From the NCBI GenBank assembly GCA_018057455.1, contig JAGPDT010000017.1, positions 1 through 56,933 of the forward strand: a stretch of 56,933 nucleotides of DNA. Reading direction: 5' to 3'. Source of the DNA: Flavobacteriales bacterium (GTDB lineage: Bacteria; Bacteroidota; Bacteroidia; Flavobacteriales_F; PHOS-HE28). The position numbers and the translations under genes are program-made. The notes under the pieces were generated by a model that saw only the letters and a program-made list of their open reading frames with translations, had not been told where the DNA came from and searched no databases. Positions 5,719-10,002 of this stretch are shown here, one piece after another; within the stretch, counting starts at the first letter, position 1, and each line of letters opens with the position of its first letter.

Positions 5719-6372
5719 TCAACGCACACCGCTCTGTACCTCGGGCACCGTGGCGTTCCGTTCCTGGAGGTAGCGTTGGTAGGTTTCGCTGTAGGCGGCG
5801 CGCTGATCGAACACGTCACCAAAATTGCCCAGCAAGCTGAGCACGGCCTCGGTGGCTTCCCGCAGCCCGTTCTCTCCCCCGCTTGTCGCCGTCACCAGGT
5901 CGGCATCGCCCCGGGCGATCACATGTTCGGTGAAACGCTCCCCGCCCCTGCGGCCGATCATCACGCGAAGCCCGCAACGCCTGGCCACGTCCAGGTCGAT
6001 GGCATCATCGAAAAAGAAGGCGACCTCCGGGGCGGCAAGGCCATGCGCCTGAAGAAACGCATCAAAGGCCACGCCTTTGTTGATGAAGCCCATGTACAAG
6101 CCATGGAAGCGCTCCCGTTGCACAAATTTCTCCGCGAAGGGATTGAGCTGCCCGGTGAGCACGGCCGATGGCGGGTTGATGCCGTTGCGCAGCCACATGC
6201 CGAAGCGGAGCATGTTCACGCCCATGCTGCCCACTTCGCTGAAGGGACTGCCACCATCGAGGTCCTTCCAACCGTCGTTGAACACGCCGTCCCAATCAAA
6301 GAGGACGGCTTTGATGTGCTGGGCACGGGATCGCAGGTCCTCCGGGGTGCGCACGTAGCGGGTCAGATGCAT
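5719..6372 (-). CDS. HAD phosphatase, KdsC-like (predicted KDO 8-phosphate phosphatase)
   Basis: A 217-residue HAD-superfamily protein. Motif I is FDWDGVFND (Asp26, Asp28), the VLTGQ Thr73 fits motif II, INKG Lys99 fits motif III, and FFDDAIDLD (Asp122, Asp123) is motif IV. The short cap-less build, motif I ending in GVxxDG and the GSMGVNML stretch after it resemble KdsC (DVDGVLTDG, VRDGLGI), which removes phosphate from KDO 8-phosphate. It is longer than E. coli KdsC by about 30 residues and clearly diverged. Context supports the call: it is the last gene of a run with kdsA and the aldolase-CBS gene. A sugar phosphatase for a different acid sugar is the alternative. Confidence 0.72.
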   Translation of the reverse strand: MHLTRYVRTPEDLRSRAQHIKAVLFDWDGVFNDGWKDLDGGSPFSEVGSMGVNMLRFGMWLRNGINPPSAVLTGQLNPFAEKFVQRERFHGLYMGFINKGVAFDAFLQAHGLAAPEVAFFFDDAIDLDVARRCGLRVMIGRRGGERFTEHVIARGDADLVTATSGGENGLREATEAVLSLLGNFGDVFDQRAAYSETYQRYLQERNATVPEVQSGVR

Positions 6373-6507
6373 TTCAGTTGTTCGTTGCCGGTTCTAGGTT
6401 GCCAGTTCTCTGGCTTGCGACCGTGGCCGTGCCCTTGGACCACACTGCACCAGTTGGTTTGCACGGAAGATCCAGGTCATCCCTGACAACTTGCAACTAA
6501 CCACCTC

Positions 6508-7530
6508 CTACCCCGCGATCGCCTTCATCAAATCCTGGATGTCCAGCATGCCGAGCTGTTTGCCGTTCTCACTTACGCTCAACGTATCCACCTTGTGTTC
6601 CTTGAAGGCTTTCTGGGCCTCGTCCAGCAAGGCCTCGGGCGAAATGGTGAACGGTGCGTTGAACTTCAGGGTGCTGAGCTTCTTGGCGAGGAACTTGTTG
6701 CCTTCCTTCTCCAGCCCGCGGCGCAGGCCGCCATCGGTGAATACGCCGGTGTTCTTGCCTTTGGCATCCACCACCATCACGGCACCGAAGCCGTGCTTGG
6801 TCATTTCCACCAGGGCCTCGCTCACCGTCTTGCTGTCCTTCACCACGGGATTGGTGCGGCTCACCACGTCCTTCACCTTCATGGTGATCAGGCGGGTGTC
6901 CACATAGAACTGCTTGGTGCCGATGGCGGTGAAGTGGTTGTCGGTAAGCTGCTTCATCAGCTTCCATGGCACGGTGATCGTGTGCACGCCCAACTCCACG
7001 GCATTGCGCACATGCTCCACGGTGCGCACGCTGCTGAACATGATCTTGGTGTCATAGCCGTAATAGTTCACGGCATGCACGCATTGTTCCACCAAGGCCA
7101 GTGCATCATGTCCCTGGTCCTGGAGACGGCCCACCAAGGGGCACACATAGCTGGCCCCGGCCTGCATGGCCATGTAGGCCTGTTGCAGGGTGTAAACCAG
7201 GTGCACGTTCACCTTGATGCCCTCATTGCGCAACAGGCGGCAGGCGCGCAGGCCCTCCAAGCTCACGGGGATCTTGAAGACGGTGGTTTCCTTCTTCAGG
7301 CCCATCTTCAGCTGGCGCTTGGCCTCCTTTACCACTTCCTCGGCGGTTTCGCCCAAGGCTTCCACCTGCAGGATGGGCACCTTCTTGGCGAGGTCCAGGA
7401 TCATCTTGTCGATGTCCGTGACCCCACCCCGGTGCATGAAGGTGGGTGTGGTGGTAAGGCCGGTGAGGAAACCCAGTTTGAAGGCTTCGTCGATTTCCTT
7501 GATGTCGGCGCTGTCGAGGTAGAGTTCCAT
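6508..7530 (-). CDS. Transaldolase-like (TalC/FSA-type) barrel fused to a KdsD-type CBS pair
   Basis: A 340-residue two-part protein. Residues 1-215 are a TalC/fructose-6-phosphate-aldolase-like barrel: MELYLDSADIKEI (Asp6), the Schiff-base Lys86 in FKIPVSLEGL, and YVCPLVGRLQDQG. Residues about 220-340 are two CBS motifs whose GVFTDGGLRR and HKVDTLSVSENGKQLGMLDIQDL closely resemble the tail of arabinose-5-phosphate isomerase KdsD. The SIS isomerase domain itself is absent. By memory alignment to E. coli FSA, Asp6, Lys86, Gln55 and a Ser near 166 are kept, but Asn28 is Thr28, Thr109 is His110, Ala129 is Cys130 and Tyr131 is Leu132, so the reaction may differ from FSA. It lies between kdsA and a kdsC-like gene, hence a predicted role in supplying or sensing arabinose 5-phosphate for KDO. 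That role is inference. Confidence 0.85.
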   Translation of the reverse strand: MELYLDSADIKEIDEAFKLGFLTGLTTTPTFMHRGGVTDIDKMILDLAKKVPILQVEALGETAEEVVKEAKRQLKMGLKKETTVFKIPVSLEGLRACRLLRNEGIKVNVHLVYTLQQAYMAMQAGASYVCPLVGRLQDQGHDALALVEQCVHAVNYYGYDTKIMFSSVRTVEHVRNAVELGVHTITVPWKLMKQLTDNHFTAIGTKQFYVDTRLITMKVKDVVSRTNPVVKDSKTVSEALVEMTKHGFGAVMVVDAKGKNTGVFTDGGLRRGLEKEGNKFLAKKLSTLKFNAPFTISPEALLDEAQKAFKEHKVDTLSVSENGKQLGMLDIQDLMKAIAG

Positions 7531-7559
7531 GGGATCTGTACGGTTGGGATTTGATCAAG

Positions 7560-7600
7560 GCACCTGTCGCGTCGACCGAATGGGTCGACTGTACAGGTGC
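7560..7600. repeat. Long interrupted palindrome between kdsA and the aldolase-CBS gene
   Basis: The left arm GCACCTGT-cgc-GTCGACC and the right arm GGTCGAC-tgt-ACAGGTGC are reverse complements except for a 3x3 internal mismatch, with a loop of about five bases. It fills half of the 80-base kdsA/aldolase gap. There is no T-tract on either side, so it is not a standard intrinsic terminator. It could be an attenuator, an mRNA-stabilising hairpin, an operator for a dimeric regulator, or a REP-like element. I saw no second copy in the window. Confidence 0.8.
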
Positions 7601-7610
7601 GGGTGGCTCG

Positions 7611-8456
7611 TTAGGCGGTAACGGTGCGATGGCGGTGTTTCACTTCCACGGCATGGATGTCCAGCAGCGGCTTGAGGAATTCCTCCAGGTCGTACACGCA
7701 GAGCTGGCTGGCCGCATCACAGAGGGCCTTGGCCGGATCGGGGTGGGTTTCGATGAACACGCCATCCACCCCTGCGGCCACGCCTGCGCGGGCAATGGTG
7801 GGCATCACATCGCGGTTGCCGCCGCGCGGGTCGGCGCTGGGGATGCCGTATTTGCGTATGCTGTGGGTGATGTCGAACACCACGGGGTACCCGGTACGCC
7901 GCATGTGGTAAAATGCGCGTGGGTCCACGATCAGGTCGTTGTAGCCGAAGGTGTAGCCGCGTTCGGTCAGGATGATCTTGTCGTTGCCCACGCTTTTGGC
8001 CTTTTCGGCCGGCTTGATCATGTTGTCCGGTGCCAGGAACTGCGCATGCTTCAAGTTGATCACGGCGCCGGTGCTGGCGGCCTCGGTCACCAAGGTGGTC
8101 TGCATCACCAGGTAGGCGGGAATCTGCAGCACGTCCACCACGTCGGCGGCAGGCTTGGCCTGGCTTGGGTAATGGATGTCGGTGAGGATCGGAAAGCCGA
8201 AGTCCTGTTTGATCCGCTGCAGCACCTTCAGTCCTTCCTCCAGGCCCGGACCTTGGTAGAAGTCCACGCTGCTGCGGTTGTCCTTGGTGAAGCTGCTCTT
8301 GTAGATCACGGGCACCTGCAGGCGCTCGCTCACCTCCTTGAGCTTCTCGGCCGTGCGCAGCATCACGTCCTTGGTTTCGATCACGCAGGGGCCGGAGATG
8401 AGGAAGAGCTGGTCTGAACCGCAGGCGATATTGCCTACTTGCACGATCTTGGTCAT
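7611..8456 (-). CDS. kdsA: 3-deoxy-8-phosphooctulonate synthase (KDO 8-P synthase)
   Basis: A 281-residue TIM-barrel enzyme that condenses arabinose 5-phosphate with phosphoenolpyruvate to give KDO 8-phosphate, the precursor of the lipid A inner-core sugar. It shows LISGPCVIE near the start (Cys24), YKSSFTKDNRSS, FPILTDIHYP, VFDITHSIRKYG, and the C-terminal GVFIETHPDPAKAL. The Cys in GPCVIE, where the E. coli enzyme has Asn, marks the metal-dependent class of KdsA. A separate -7 box (8485-8492) precedes it. Downstream come the palindrome, the aldolase-CBS gene and the KdsC-like gene, all co-directional. Confidence 0.94.
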   Translation of the reverse strand: MTKIVQVGNIACGSDQLFLISGPCVIETKDVMLRTAEKLKEVSERLQVPVIYKSSFTKDNRSSVDFYQGPGLEEGLKVLQRIKQDFGFPILTDIHYPSQAKPAADVVDVLQIPAYLVMQTTLVTEAASTGAVINLKHAQFLAPDNMIKPAEKAKSVGNDKIILTERGYTFGYNDLIVDPRAFYHMRRTGYPVVFDITHSIRKYGIPSADPRGGNRDVMPTIARAGVAAGVDGVFIETHPDPAKALCDAASQLCVYDLEEFLKPLLDIHAVEVKHRHRTVTA

Positions 8457-8492: not shown

Positions 8493-9110
8493 CCCTTTCG
8501 CCACCGTTGCGTGAAGCAGCCGTTTATCATTGAGAAAGCCTTCCAGCACATCCCCCGGAACAATGGGGCCAATGCCGGCCGGTGTGCCCGTGAACAACAG
8601 GTCCCCGGGCTCCAGGGTGATGTAGCGCGACACATGGGCGATCAGGTCGGCCACGGGGAAGATCATGTTGGCCGTGGAGTCCCGCTGCACGGTCTGTCCG
8701 TTCTTTTTCAGCTCCATGCCGAAGGACTGCAGGTCGGTGGATGCGGTCATGGGCAGTTCCACCTCGCCCAGCACGGCAGAGCCGTCCCATGCTTTGGCCT
8801 TTTCCCACGGAAGGCCATTTGCCTTCAATTGGTTCTGCAAGGTGCGTGCGGTGAGGTCAAGGCCCAAGGTGAAGGAGGCGATCAGGCCCAGGGCCATGTG
8901 CTTGGGCACGTCCTTGGCATAACTGTCGATCATCACCACCAGTTCGAGTTCATGCTCGATCTCGCCGGGGATGTTCGGCAAACGGATGTCCTGCCCCGGA
9001 TACAGGCAGGCCGTGGTGGGCTTGAGGAAGAAGAGGGGTTCTTGGGGCACCTCGTTTCCCAGTTCCTTGGCATGGTCGGCGTAGTTGCGCCCGATGCATA
9101 TGACTTTCAT
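8490..9110 (-). CDS. Fumarylacetoacetate hydrolase family protein (FAHD1/YcgM-like)
   Basis: A 206-residue single-domain FAH-fold protein. It opens with VICIGRNYADHAKELGN and PLFFLKP, carries the metal ligands in HELELVVMI (Glu54, Glu56) with Asp85 in LGLDLTAR, has the AKAWDGSAVLG lysine loop, and ends with GDLLFTGTPAGIGPIVPGD. Relatives act as acylpyruvate hydrolases or as oxaloacetate tautomerase/decarboxylases; the exact substrate cannot be read from sequence. It is 34 bases upstream of kdsA on the same strand, but kdsA appears to have its own promoter, so a link to KDO synthesis is not implied. Confidence 0.9.
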   Translation of the reverse strand: MKVICIGRNYADHAKELGNEVPQEPLFFLKPTTACLYPGQDIRLPNIPGEIEHELELVVMIDSYAKDVPKHMALGLIASFTLGLDLTARTLQNQLKANGLPWEKAKAWDGSAVLGEVELPMTASTDLQSFGMELKKNGQTVQRDSTANMIFPVADLIAHVSRYITLEPGDLLFTGTPAGIGPIVPGDVLEGFLNDKRLLHATVAKG

Positions 9111-9231
9111 GTGGGATCGATGATCTGTAGGCGGGCGGGACGCTGCCGCAGCCAGGTGGTGGTGGTGGTGGATCGCATTGGAGCGGCAGTACTGTCCCGG
9201 TGTATTGCCCCACGATGCGGGTAGGCTTCGT

Positions 9232-10002
9232 TCAGGTGTGGAGATCGGTGAGCGCGTTGCGCATGATGGCCAAGGTGCTGGGTGGCAGTTCGGCCTTGGT
9301 GATCAGCCACTGCATGTAGCCGGGGTCGTTGCGGCCGATGTTCTCCAGGGTCCAGCCGCGGTACTTGCCGAAGGTGAGGCACAGGTGGCCGTGCGCGTCG
9401 AAGGCAAGCTTTCCGGCGGCATCGGGGCTGCGTTTGCGGTCGCCGCAGAATTCCCCCAATCCGTCCACGTCATGTGGCAGTTCGGCGTAGCGTTCCAGTT
9501 GTGCCAACAGCACATCCGCGGTGGTCTCCACATCGGCCAAGGCATCATGGGCACCTGCGTGGGGCCGCTGCAAATAGAAGCGGGCCGCGGCGCTGAGGTC
9601 GCGCCGCTCGAAATGGTGGTAGATGCGCAATGCATCCACCACACGGACGTTGGCGGTGTCCCAGTGGATGCCCACGCGGAAGAATTCCTCGCTGAGCAAG
9701 GGCAGGTCGAACCGCAGAATGTTGAATCCGCAGAGGTCGCAATCGGCCAACAGTCCCAGCAGGTGGTCGGCCACCGCTTCGAGCGCAGGTGCATCGGCCA
9801 CATCGGCATTGGTGATGCCGTGCACGGCTGAGGCTTCGGCCGGTATGGGCATGCCCGGGTTGACCAAGCTCTGCCAAGCACTCCGGCTTCCATCGGGCAT
9901 CAGGCGCACCACGGCAACCTGTACGATGCGGTCATGCCCGATGCGGGTACCGGTGGTTTCCAGGTCGAATACGGCCAAGGGGCGTTGCAGATCCAATGAC
10001 AT
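9232..10002 (-). CDS. DEDDh 3'-5' exonuclease (DnaQ/ExoX-like) with extra C-terminal domain
   Basis: A 256-residue protein. Residues 1-170 form a DnaQ-type exonuclease with Asp13 and Glu15 (VFDLETTG), Asp99 (FNILRFDLPLL), His152 and Asp157 (AHDALADVE), so the DEDDh set is complete. The C-terminal part (about 205-250) has FGKYRGWTLENI and DPGYMQWLI, the small domain found at the end of exonuclease X/T-type proteins. A role in DNA repair or in trimming of nucleic acid ends is likely; a dedicated PolIII epsilon role is less so, because of the extra domain. It starts just beyond a strong terminator (10020-10046), and 121 bases separate it from the FAH gene. Confidence 0.88.
   Translation of the reverse strand: MSLDLQRPLAVFDLETTGTRIGHDRIVQVAVVRLMPDGSRSAWQSLVNPGMPIPAEASAVHGITNADVADAPALEAVADHLLGLLADCDLCGFNILRFDLPLLSEEFFRVGIHWDTANVRVVDALRIYHHFERRDLSAAARFYLQRPHAGAHDALADVETTADVLLAQLERYAELPHDVDGLGEFCGDRKRSPDAAGKLAFDAHGHLCLTFGKYRGWTLENIGRNDPGYMQWLITKAELPPSTLAIMRNALTDLHT

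Follow-up and report, generated by a model that had tools for sequence, protein, structure and literature searches.

We report that a gene in a 56,933-nucleotide contig from a Flavobacteriales bacterium (assembly GCA_018057455.1, contig JAGPDT010000017.1; this whole stretch is called the window below) very probably encodes the source of D-arabinose 5-phosphate (A5P) in place of the isomerase KdsD. 3-Deoxy-D-manno-octulosonate (KDO), the sugar made from A5P, has a central place in the outer membranes of most Gram-negative bacteria. KdsD, which like GutQ and KpsF consists of a SIS domain with a C-terminal CBS pair, has been discussed as a drug target. The gene in the window (6508..7530, minus strand; P0001, 340 aa) joins a transaldolase-like barrel to a CBS pair. 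With scarcely less confidence we regard this fusion, read as a lysine Schiff-base aldolase, as a non-homologous replacement for KdsD that would supply A5P to the KDO-8-phosphate synthase KdsA. That the fusion replaces KdsD had been proposed from the window alone, and the proposal is strengthened by the absence of KdsD from the genome, by the exclusion of KdsD and dependence on KdsA seen across the class, and by conserved linkage to kdsA. The genomic findings named in advance as contrary to it, a complete kdsD elsewhere in the genome and relatives with no link to kdsA, did not turn up.

The fusion combines a catalytic half of one family with the regulatory half of another. Domain searches placed PF00923 (TAL_FSA) at residues 3-201 (E 7e-38, 131.1 bits versus a cut-off of 27), followed by two CBS domains (PF00571, E 1.4e-15). 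In the AlphaFold model (pLDDT 85), the N-terminal (beta/alpha)8 barrel of TalC/FSA type (residues 1-203; 6922..7530, minus strand) matched Thermotoga maritima transaldolase 1vpx with a Z score of 28.8 and a root-mean-square deviation of 1.5 over 195 residues, at 33% identity. The C-terminal CBS (Bateman) pair (residues 213-340; 6511..6894, minus strand) matched the tails of TIGR00393 and PRK10892: the KpsF/GutQ (58.9 bits), KdsD and GutQ models beat every other CBS family. When the pair was modelled alone, the fold matches ranked first, second and fourth were 4o9k, 3k2v and 3fna, each a CBS pair from an A5P isomerase; the ligand of 4o9k is presumably CMP-Kdo. One tree comparison of CBS sequences had no outgroup rows, non-KdsD CBS sequences not having been recovered. 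A domain search found no SIS match in P0001, and TIGR00393 aligned over model positions 153-267 only, so that of the two parts of a KdsD/GutQ/KpsF protein the C-terminal CBS pair is present and the N-terminal SIS domain is not. The original prediction thus described the protein correctly, both in the retained KdsD-type half with its GVFTDGGLRR motif, which lies at residues 262-271, and in the exchange of the SIS half for a TalC/FSA-type barrel bearing Lys86, a residue that proved invariant.

The three genes, all on the minus strand, are consecutive and co-directional, as had been stated; they are transcribed in the order kdsA, fusion, HAD phosphatase, with 80 and 135 bp between them. The first (7611..8456; P0003, 281 aa) exceeds the curated cut-offs for KdsA (NF003543, 344.5 bits versus 242; TIGR01362, 334.3 versus 314).

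Searches of the genome of this organism (3.31 Mb, 99.4% complete) with SIS and KpsF/KdsD models revealed no KdsD. Five SIS matches were found: the two halves of one 627-aa protein, which from its size and paired SIS domains is presumably GlmS, and PGI/PMI, MurQ and GmhA, each of which passes its curated cut-off. Matches to the KpsF/KdsD model were CBS tails only, the best being the fusion itself and the others unrelated, and we therefore rejected a hidden KdsD. Because KdsA is accompanied by KdsB and WaaA, both over cut-off, while KdsD is absent, the organism should make KDO without KdsD.

The distribution of the fusion points the same way. An identical set of 296 genomes of the class was searched for the fusion, KdsD, KdsA, the HAD phosphatase P0002, kdnB and KdsB. 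Presence was judged by the gap in E-values (fusion, at least 50% identity; KdsA, E at or below about 1e-50; KdsD, E at or below about 1e-40, a threshold chosen because SIS-only forms should count too). Among the 229 genomes with kdsA, 49 carried only the fusion, 176 only KdsD, two both and two neither; in one of the last two (G013) the fusion is cut by a contig end, next to its P0002 gene, which leaves only G234 with neither. No lysine-bearing fusion occurred in the 67 genomes without kdsA, six of which have KdsD. KdsB was found in 287 of the 296, including 64 of these 67; because those 64 keep kdsB yet lack the fusion, the fusion tracks KdsA, the consumer of A5P, and not KDO metabolism generally. 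Since a plain Fisher test ignores relatedness, we also stratified by GTDB family. Within the families holding both states (f5, f10, f14, f32, f34, f36 and f66; six without f32, whose single fusion genome also has KdsD), the overlap was 1 against 7.6 expected (P = 8e-7). The anticipated co-occurrence of the fusion with absence of KdsD is therefore a near-perfect exclusion, coupled to a strict dependence on KdsA.

Linkage to kdsA is likewise conserved in relatives. We collected 80 named loci, all with Bacteroidota names except two titled only "bacterium" or Saccharibacteria; carriers include Thermoflexibacter ruber, Raineya orbicola and Chryseolinea serpens. In 55 of the 80, kdsA lies just upstream of the fusion and P0002 just downstream. 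Across 77 diverse loci the recurrent neighbours were the HAD gene (56), kdsA (52), a kdnA-like aminotransferase (23), a kdnB-like iron alcohol dehydrogenase (22) and kdsB (21), often in the extended order kdnA-kdnB-kdsA-fusion-HAD-kdsB. The three-gene arrangement, kept across about 16 families, is not due to chance. Two genomes that lack the fusion amount to natural experiments in favour of the replacement. In G250, kdnA-like, kdnB, kdsA, P0002 and kdsB genes follow one another, P0002 coming straight after kdsA where the fusion would otherwise stand, and KdsD lies 2 Mb away. In G188, from the same genus as the window (9 contigs, 100% complete; L179, G188:C2:303000-320000, at 8634-9239), kdsA and the fusion are both absent, P0002 is kept at the syntenic place, and kdnB and kdsB are kept too; as kdsA and the fusion adjoin, a single assembly gap could explain the double absence. 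An open reading frame resembling a c-type cytochrome occupies the expected place of the fusion there.

In the mechanism that we propose, the barrel would make A5P by way of a Schiff base on Lys86 (codon 7273..7275, minus strand). The enamine of a C2 unit, glycolaldehyde that is either free or drawn from a sugar phosphate, would add to glyceraldehyde 3-phosphate (GAP) held by Arg135, Ser167 and Arg169, in a C2-C3 aldol reaction. Such an enzyme, an A5P aldolase, could be likened to DERA with a 2-hydroxy compound as donor, and its product would go to KdsA, encoded next to it, for making KDO. The flux is probably set by the CBS pair, which KdsD has too, through sensing of a late product, for example CMP-KDO. 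The precedent cited in the original prediction is sound, in that E. coli FSA can form A5P from glycolaldehyde and GAP: FsaA and FsaB are reported to prefer glycolaldehyde as donor and GAP as acceptor, giving A5P (PMC6298115), and FsaA has been employed in vivo as an A5P aldolase (PMC9947464). The structure matches of the fusion also include PDB 3upb, a transaldolase crystallised with A5P bound covalently. Because FSA makes A5P and this complex exists, the fold should be capable of A5P aldol chemistry.

To judge the active site, we compared 17 diverse fusions with the TalC of the same genome and with E. coli FSA, and made a second alignment of 27 members. Neither set shows any variation at Asp6, Glu57, Lys86, Asn108, Arg135, Ser167 or Arg169, residues that transaldolases share. 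Lys86, the expected Schiff-base residue, aligns with Lys85 of FSA and is lysine in all 17 fusions. Because Asp6, Glu57 and Lys86 are all kept, we prefer aldol-type chemistry, which we consider moderately likely. The closest relatives of the barrel in sequence and fold are small TalC-type transaldolases (T. maritima TM0295, B. subtilis 3r8r and that of T. acidophilum), which share these seven residues; their Asn28, Thr110, Phe132 and Ser130, however, are Thr, His, Leu and Cys in all fusions, the cysteine corresponding to Ser/Ala129 in FSA numbering. E. coli FSA has the same barrel fold, the lysine and a phosphate-binding arginine, but its Gln59 and Tyr131 are replaced in 17 of 17 fusions by Glu57 and Leu132, its Thr109 by His110 and its Asn28 by Thr28, and it has no CBS pair. 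In transaldolase structures we take Asn28 and Ser130 to bind dihydroxyacetone at its hydroxymethyl group, and Thr110 to orient the catalytic water. The loss of Asn28 and Ser130 therefore fits a donor that has no hydroxymethyl group, namely glycolaldehyde.

Several observations weigh against the fusion as an A5P aldolase that stands in for KdsD. The changes of Asn28 to Thr, Thr109 to His and Phe/Tyr131 to Leu (FSA numbering), found in 17 of 17 fusions, are unlike both TalC and FSA, and because these three residues differ from both known reaction types, the exact reaction is not readable from sequence. No source of glycolaldehyde at the scale of KDO synthesis was found; dihydroneopterin aldolase makes glycolaldehyde, by estimate too little. 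Two genomes, G225 and G292, carry both the fusion and KdsD, so the two are not strictly incompatible; in both, KdsD stands in an apparent recQ-kdsD-tatC-lptB context, judged by reading the open reading frames, and the fusion may therefore be a newcomer there. Finally, the plain Fisher P value for the exclusion, 6e-45, overstates the evidence, as the genomes are related. The predicted reaction of glycolaldehyde with GAP accordingly stands as chemistry, on the strength of FSA and 3upb; for this protein we infer it, in the face of the altered active site and the unexplained supply of glycolaldehyde.

The most serious alternative, to which we give a distinctly smaller though real chance, is that the fusion makes A5P from ribulose 5-phosphate or ribose 5-phosphate as a true isomerase or C2-epimerase, with His110 and Glu57 as acid and base, or by retro-aldol cleavage and re-addition without release of glycolaldehyde. 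If the enzyme were a C2-epimerase that treats ribose 5-phosphate by retro-aldol cleavage, or a His110 isomerase, the glycolaldehyde problem would not arise. Either suits the exchange with KdsD: it would be a drop-in replacement, and the repeated one-for-one swaps would need no extra gene. The new histidine, invariant in fusions and absent from transaldolase and FSA, could act as acid/base, and the changes at Asn28 and Ser130, presumed contacts of the donor hydroxymethyl group, are also in keeping with such a reaction. Yet the full transaldolase triad, including Asp6, is kept, as carbon-carbon bond chemistry needs, and we know of no isomerase in the TAL/FSA family.

Much less probable is an ordinary transaldolase or fructose-6-phosphate aldolase in which CMP-KDO, acting through the CBS tail, controls pentose-phosphate flux, while A5P comes from an unrecognised enzyme. 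The same fold, the 30-36% identity to transaldolases among the structure matches and the conserved triad agree with this, but the genome has a separate standard TalC with all canonical residues (TIGR00875, 288.9 bits versus a curated cut-off of 245.95), whereas the fusion scores only 167.4, below that cut-off, and has other residues at Asn28, Thr109 and Phe131. Nor would this reading account for the anticorrelation with KdsD. Because of the canonical TalC and the differing active site of the fusion, we rejected this as the best reading. It is very improbable that the fusion degrades or buffers A5P by retro-aldol cleavage while another isomerase makes it: aldolases are reversible and the CBS tail could sense the pathway end product, but KdsD is absent and the searches of the genome gave no other KdsD-like SIS protein, and exclusion with KdsD is the pattern of a substitute, not an antagonist.

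The replacement, if correct, would give two unrelated catalytic domains a common regulatory tail. The fusion and the KdsD/GutQ/KpsF isomerases (TIGR00393) are alike in the proposed product, A5P for KdsA, in a homologous CBS pair with GVFTDGxLRR and in their genomic niche within the KDO pathway; they differ in the catalytic half, a TAL/FSA barrel with a Schiff-base lysine in the fusion and SIS in the isomerases. We count the shared CBS tail in favour of the replacement. The absence of KdsD together with a kdsA-adjacent fusion in many Bacteroidota suggests an uncharacterised second route to an essential envelope sugar. Were the first committed sugar made by a second, unrelated enzyme, it would be clear how many Bacteroidota with kdsA do without KdsD. 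The fusions would then constitute a new enzyme family that is directly assayable, and annotation would be corrected, since a family search would name them transaldolase or fructose-6-phosphate aldolase. In the literature searched, which left out most subscription papers, we found no earlier description of an aldolase-CBS fusion as a KdsD substitute. Taken as a whole, the fullest model is tentative, its chances falling a little short of even: a lysine-dependent A5P aldolase, joining a glycolaldehyde unit to GAP under feedback control by a KdsD-derived CBS pair, would feed KDO production in a sizeable fraction of Bacteroidota and bypass ribulose-5-phosphate isomerisation, and a third route may exist in lineages that have kdsB and lack kdsA.

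These lineages are themselves of note. The 64 genomes with kdsB over cut-off and no kdsA by TIGR01362 (for example G002, G007, G009, G148 and G268) nearly all lack both KdsD and the fusion. Either KdsA has been replaced there by an unrecognised protein, or KdsB serves another sugar. Inspection of 20 kdsA-less genomes gave no common KdsA substitute beside kdsB, the neighbours looking unrelated.

Distant fusions of 37-42% identity occur in family f3 (loci L074-L078, from G111, G163, G047, G082 and G139). In these the Schiff-base lysine is Arg or Ser, the phosphate-binding arginines are lost, kdsA is missing from the genome and the neighbouring genes are unrelated; they are probably non-aldolase descendants. 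We counted them as carriers at first and then set them apart, as the lysine is missing and their genomes have no kdsA; this loss of the lysine where kdsA is absent speaks for the proposed role of the lysine-bearing fusions. Their conserved upstream neighbour is an open reading frame of 571-616 aa with no family match assigned.

The third gene of the window (5719..6372, minus strand; P0002, 217 aa) had been called kdsC-like, a label that proved too strong. Its scores are far below the KdsC cut-offs (PRK09484, 52.3 versus 208; TIGR01670, 34.6 versus 107) and do not support it as the KdsC; contig C7 of the same genome holds a better candidate (104.7 and 95.5 bits), itself still short of the cut-offs. 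P0002 is thus a distant KdsC relative and a weak candidate, though a possible KDO-8-phosphate phosphatase. It represents a HAD phosphatase subfamily that has no Pfam match and is nearly confined to fusion-bearing genomes: orthologues (E < 1e-32) were found in 51 of the 296 genomes, 48 of them with the fusion, and the HAD motif residues D26, D28, D122, D123 and D126 do not vary among 57 proteins. As G250 and G188 retain P0002 and lack the fusion, P0002 seems tied more to the cluster for KDO or 8-amino-KDO (Kdo8N) than to the fusion reaction.

Genes like kdnA and kdnB were found at G000 C43:23461-24528 and at fusion loci such as L057:4339-6629. At fusion loci they adjoin kdsA and kdsB; they match DegT-type aminotransferases and iron alcohol dehydrogenases, none over an equivalog cut-off. 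A kdnB-like gene is present in 47 of the 296 genomes, 37 of which have the fusion, and that of the window genome is 60% identical to the kdnB-like gene of another fusion operon. To our knowledge, the Kdo8N clusters of Shewanella contain no aldolase-CBS gene. The comparison with Shewanella kdnA and kdnB, where KdnB is the KDO 8-oxidase of Kdo8N synthesis (PMC5125639), is made here by family and neighbourhood only, and on that footing Kdo8N may be common in Bacteroidota.

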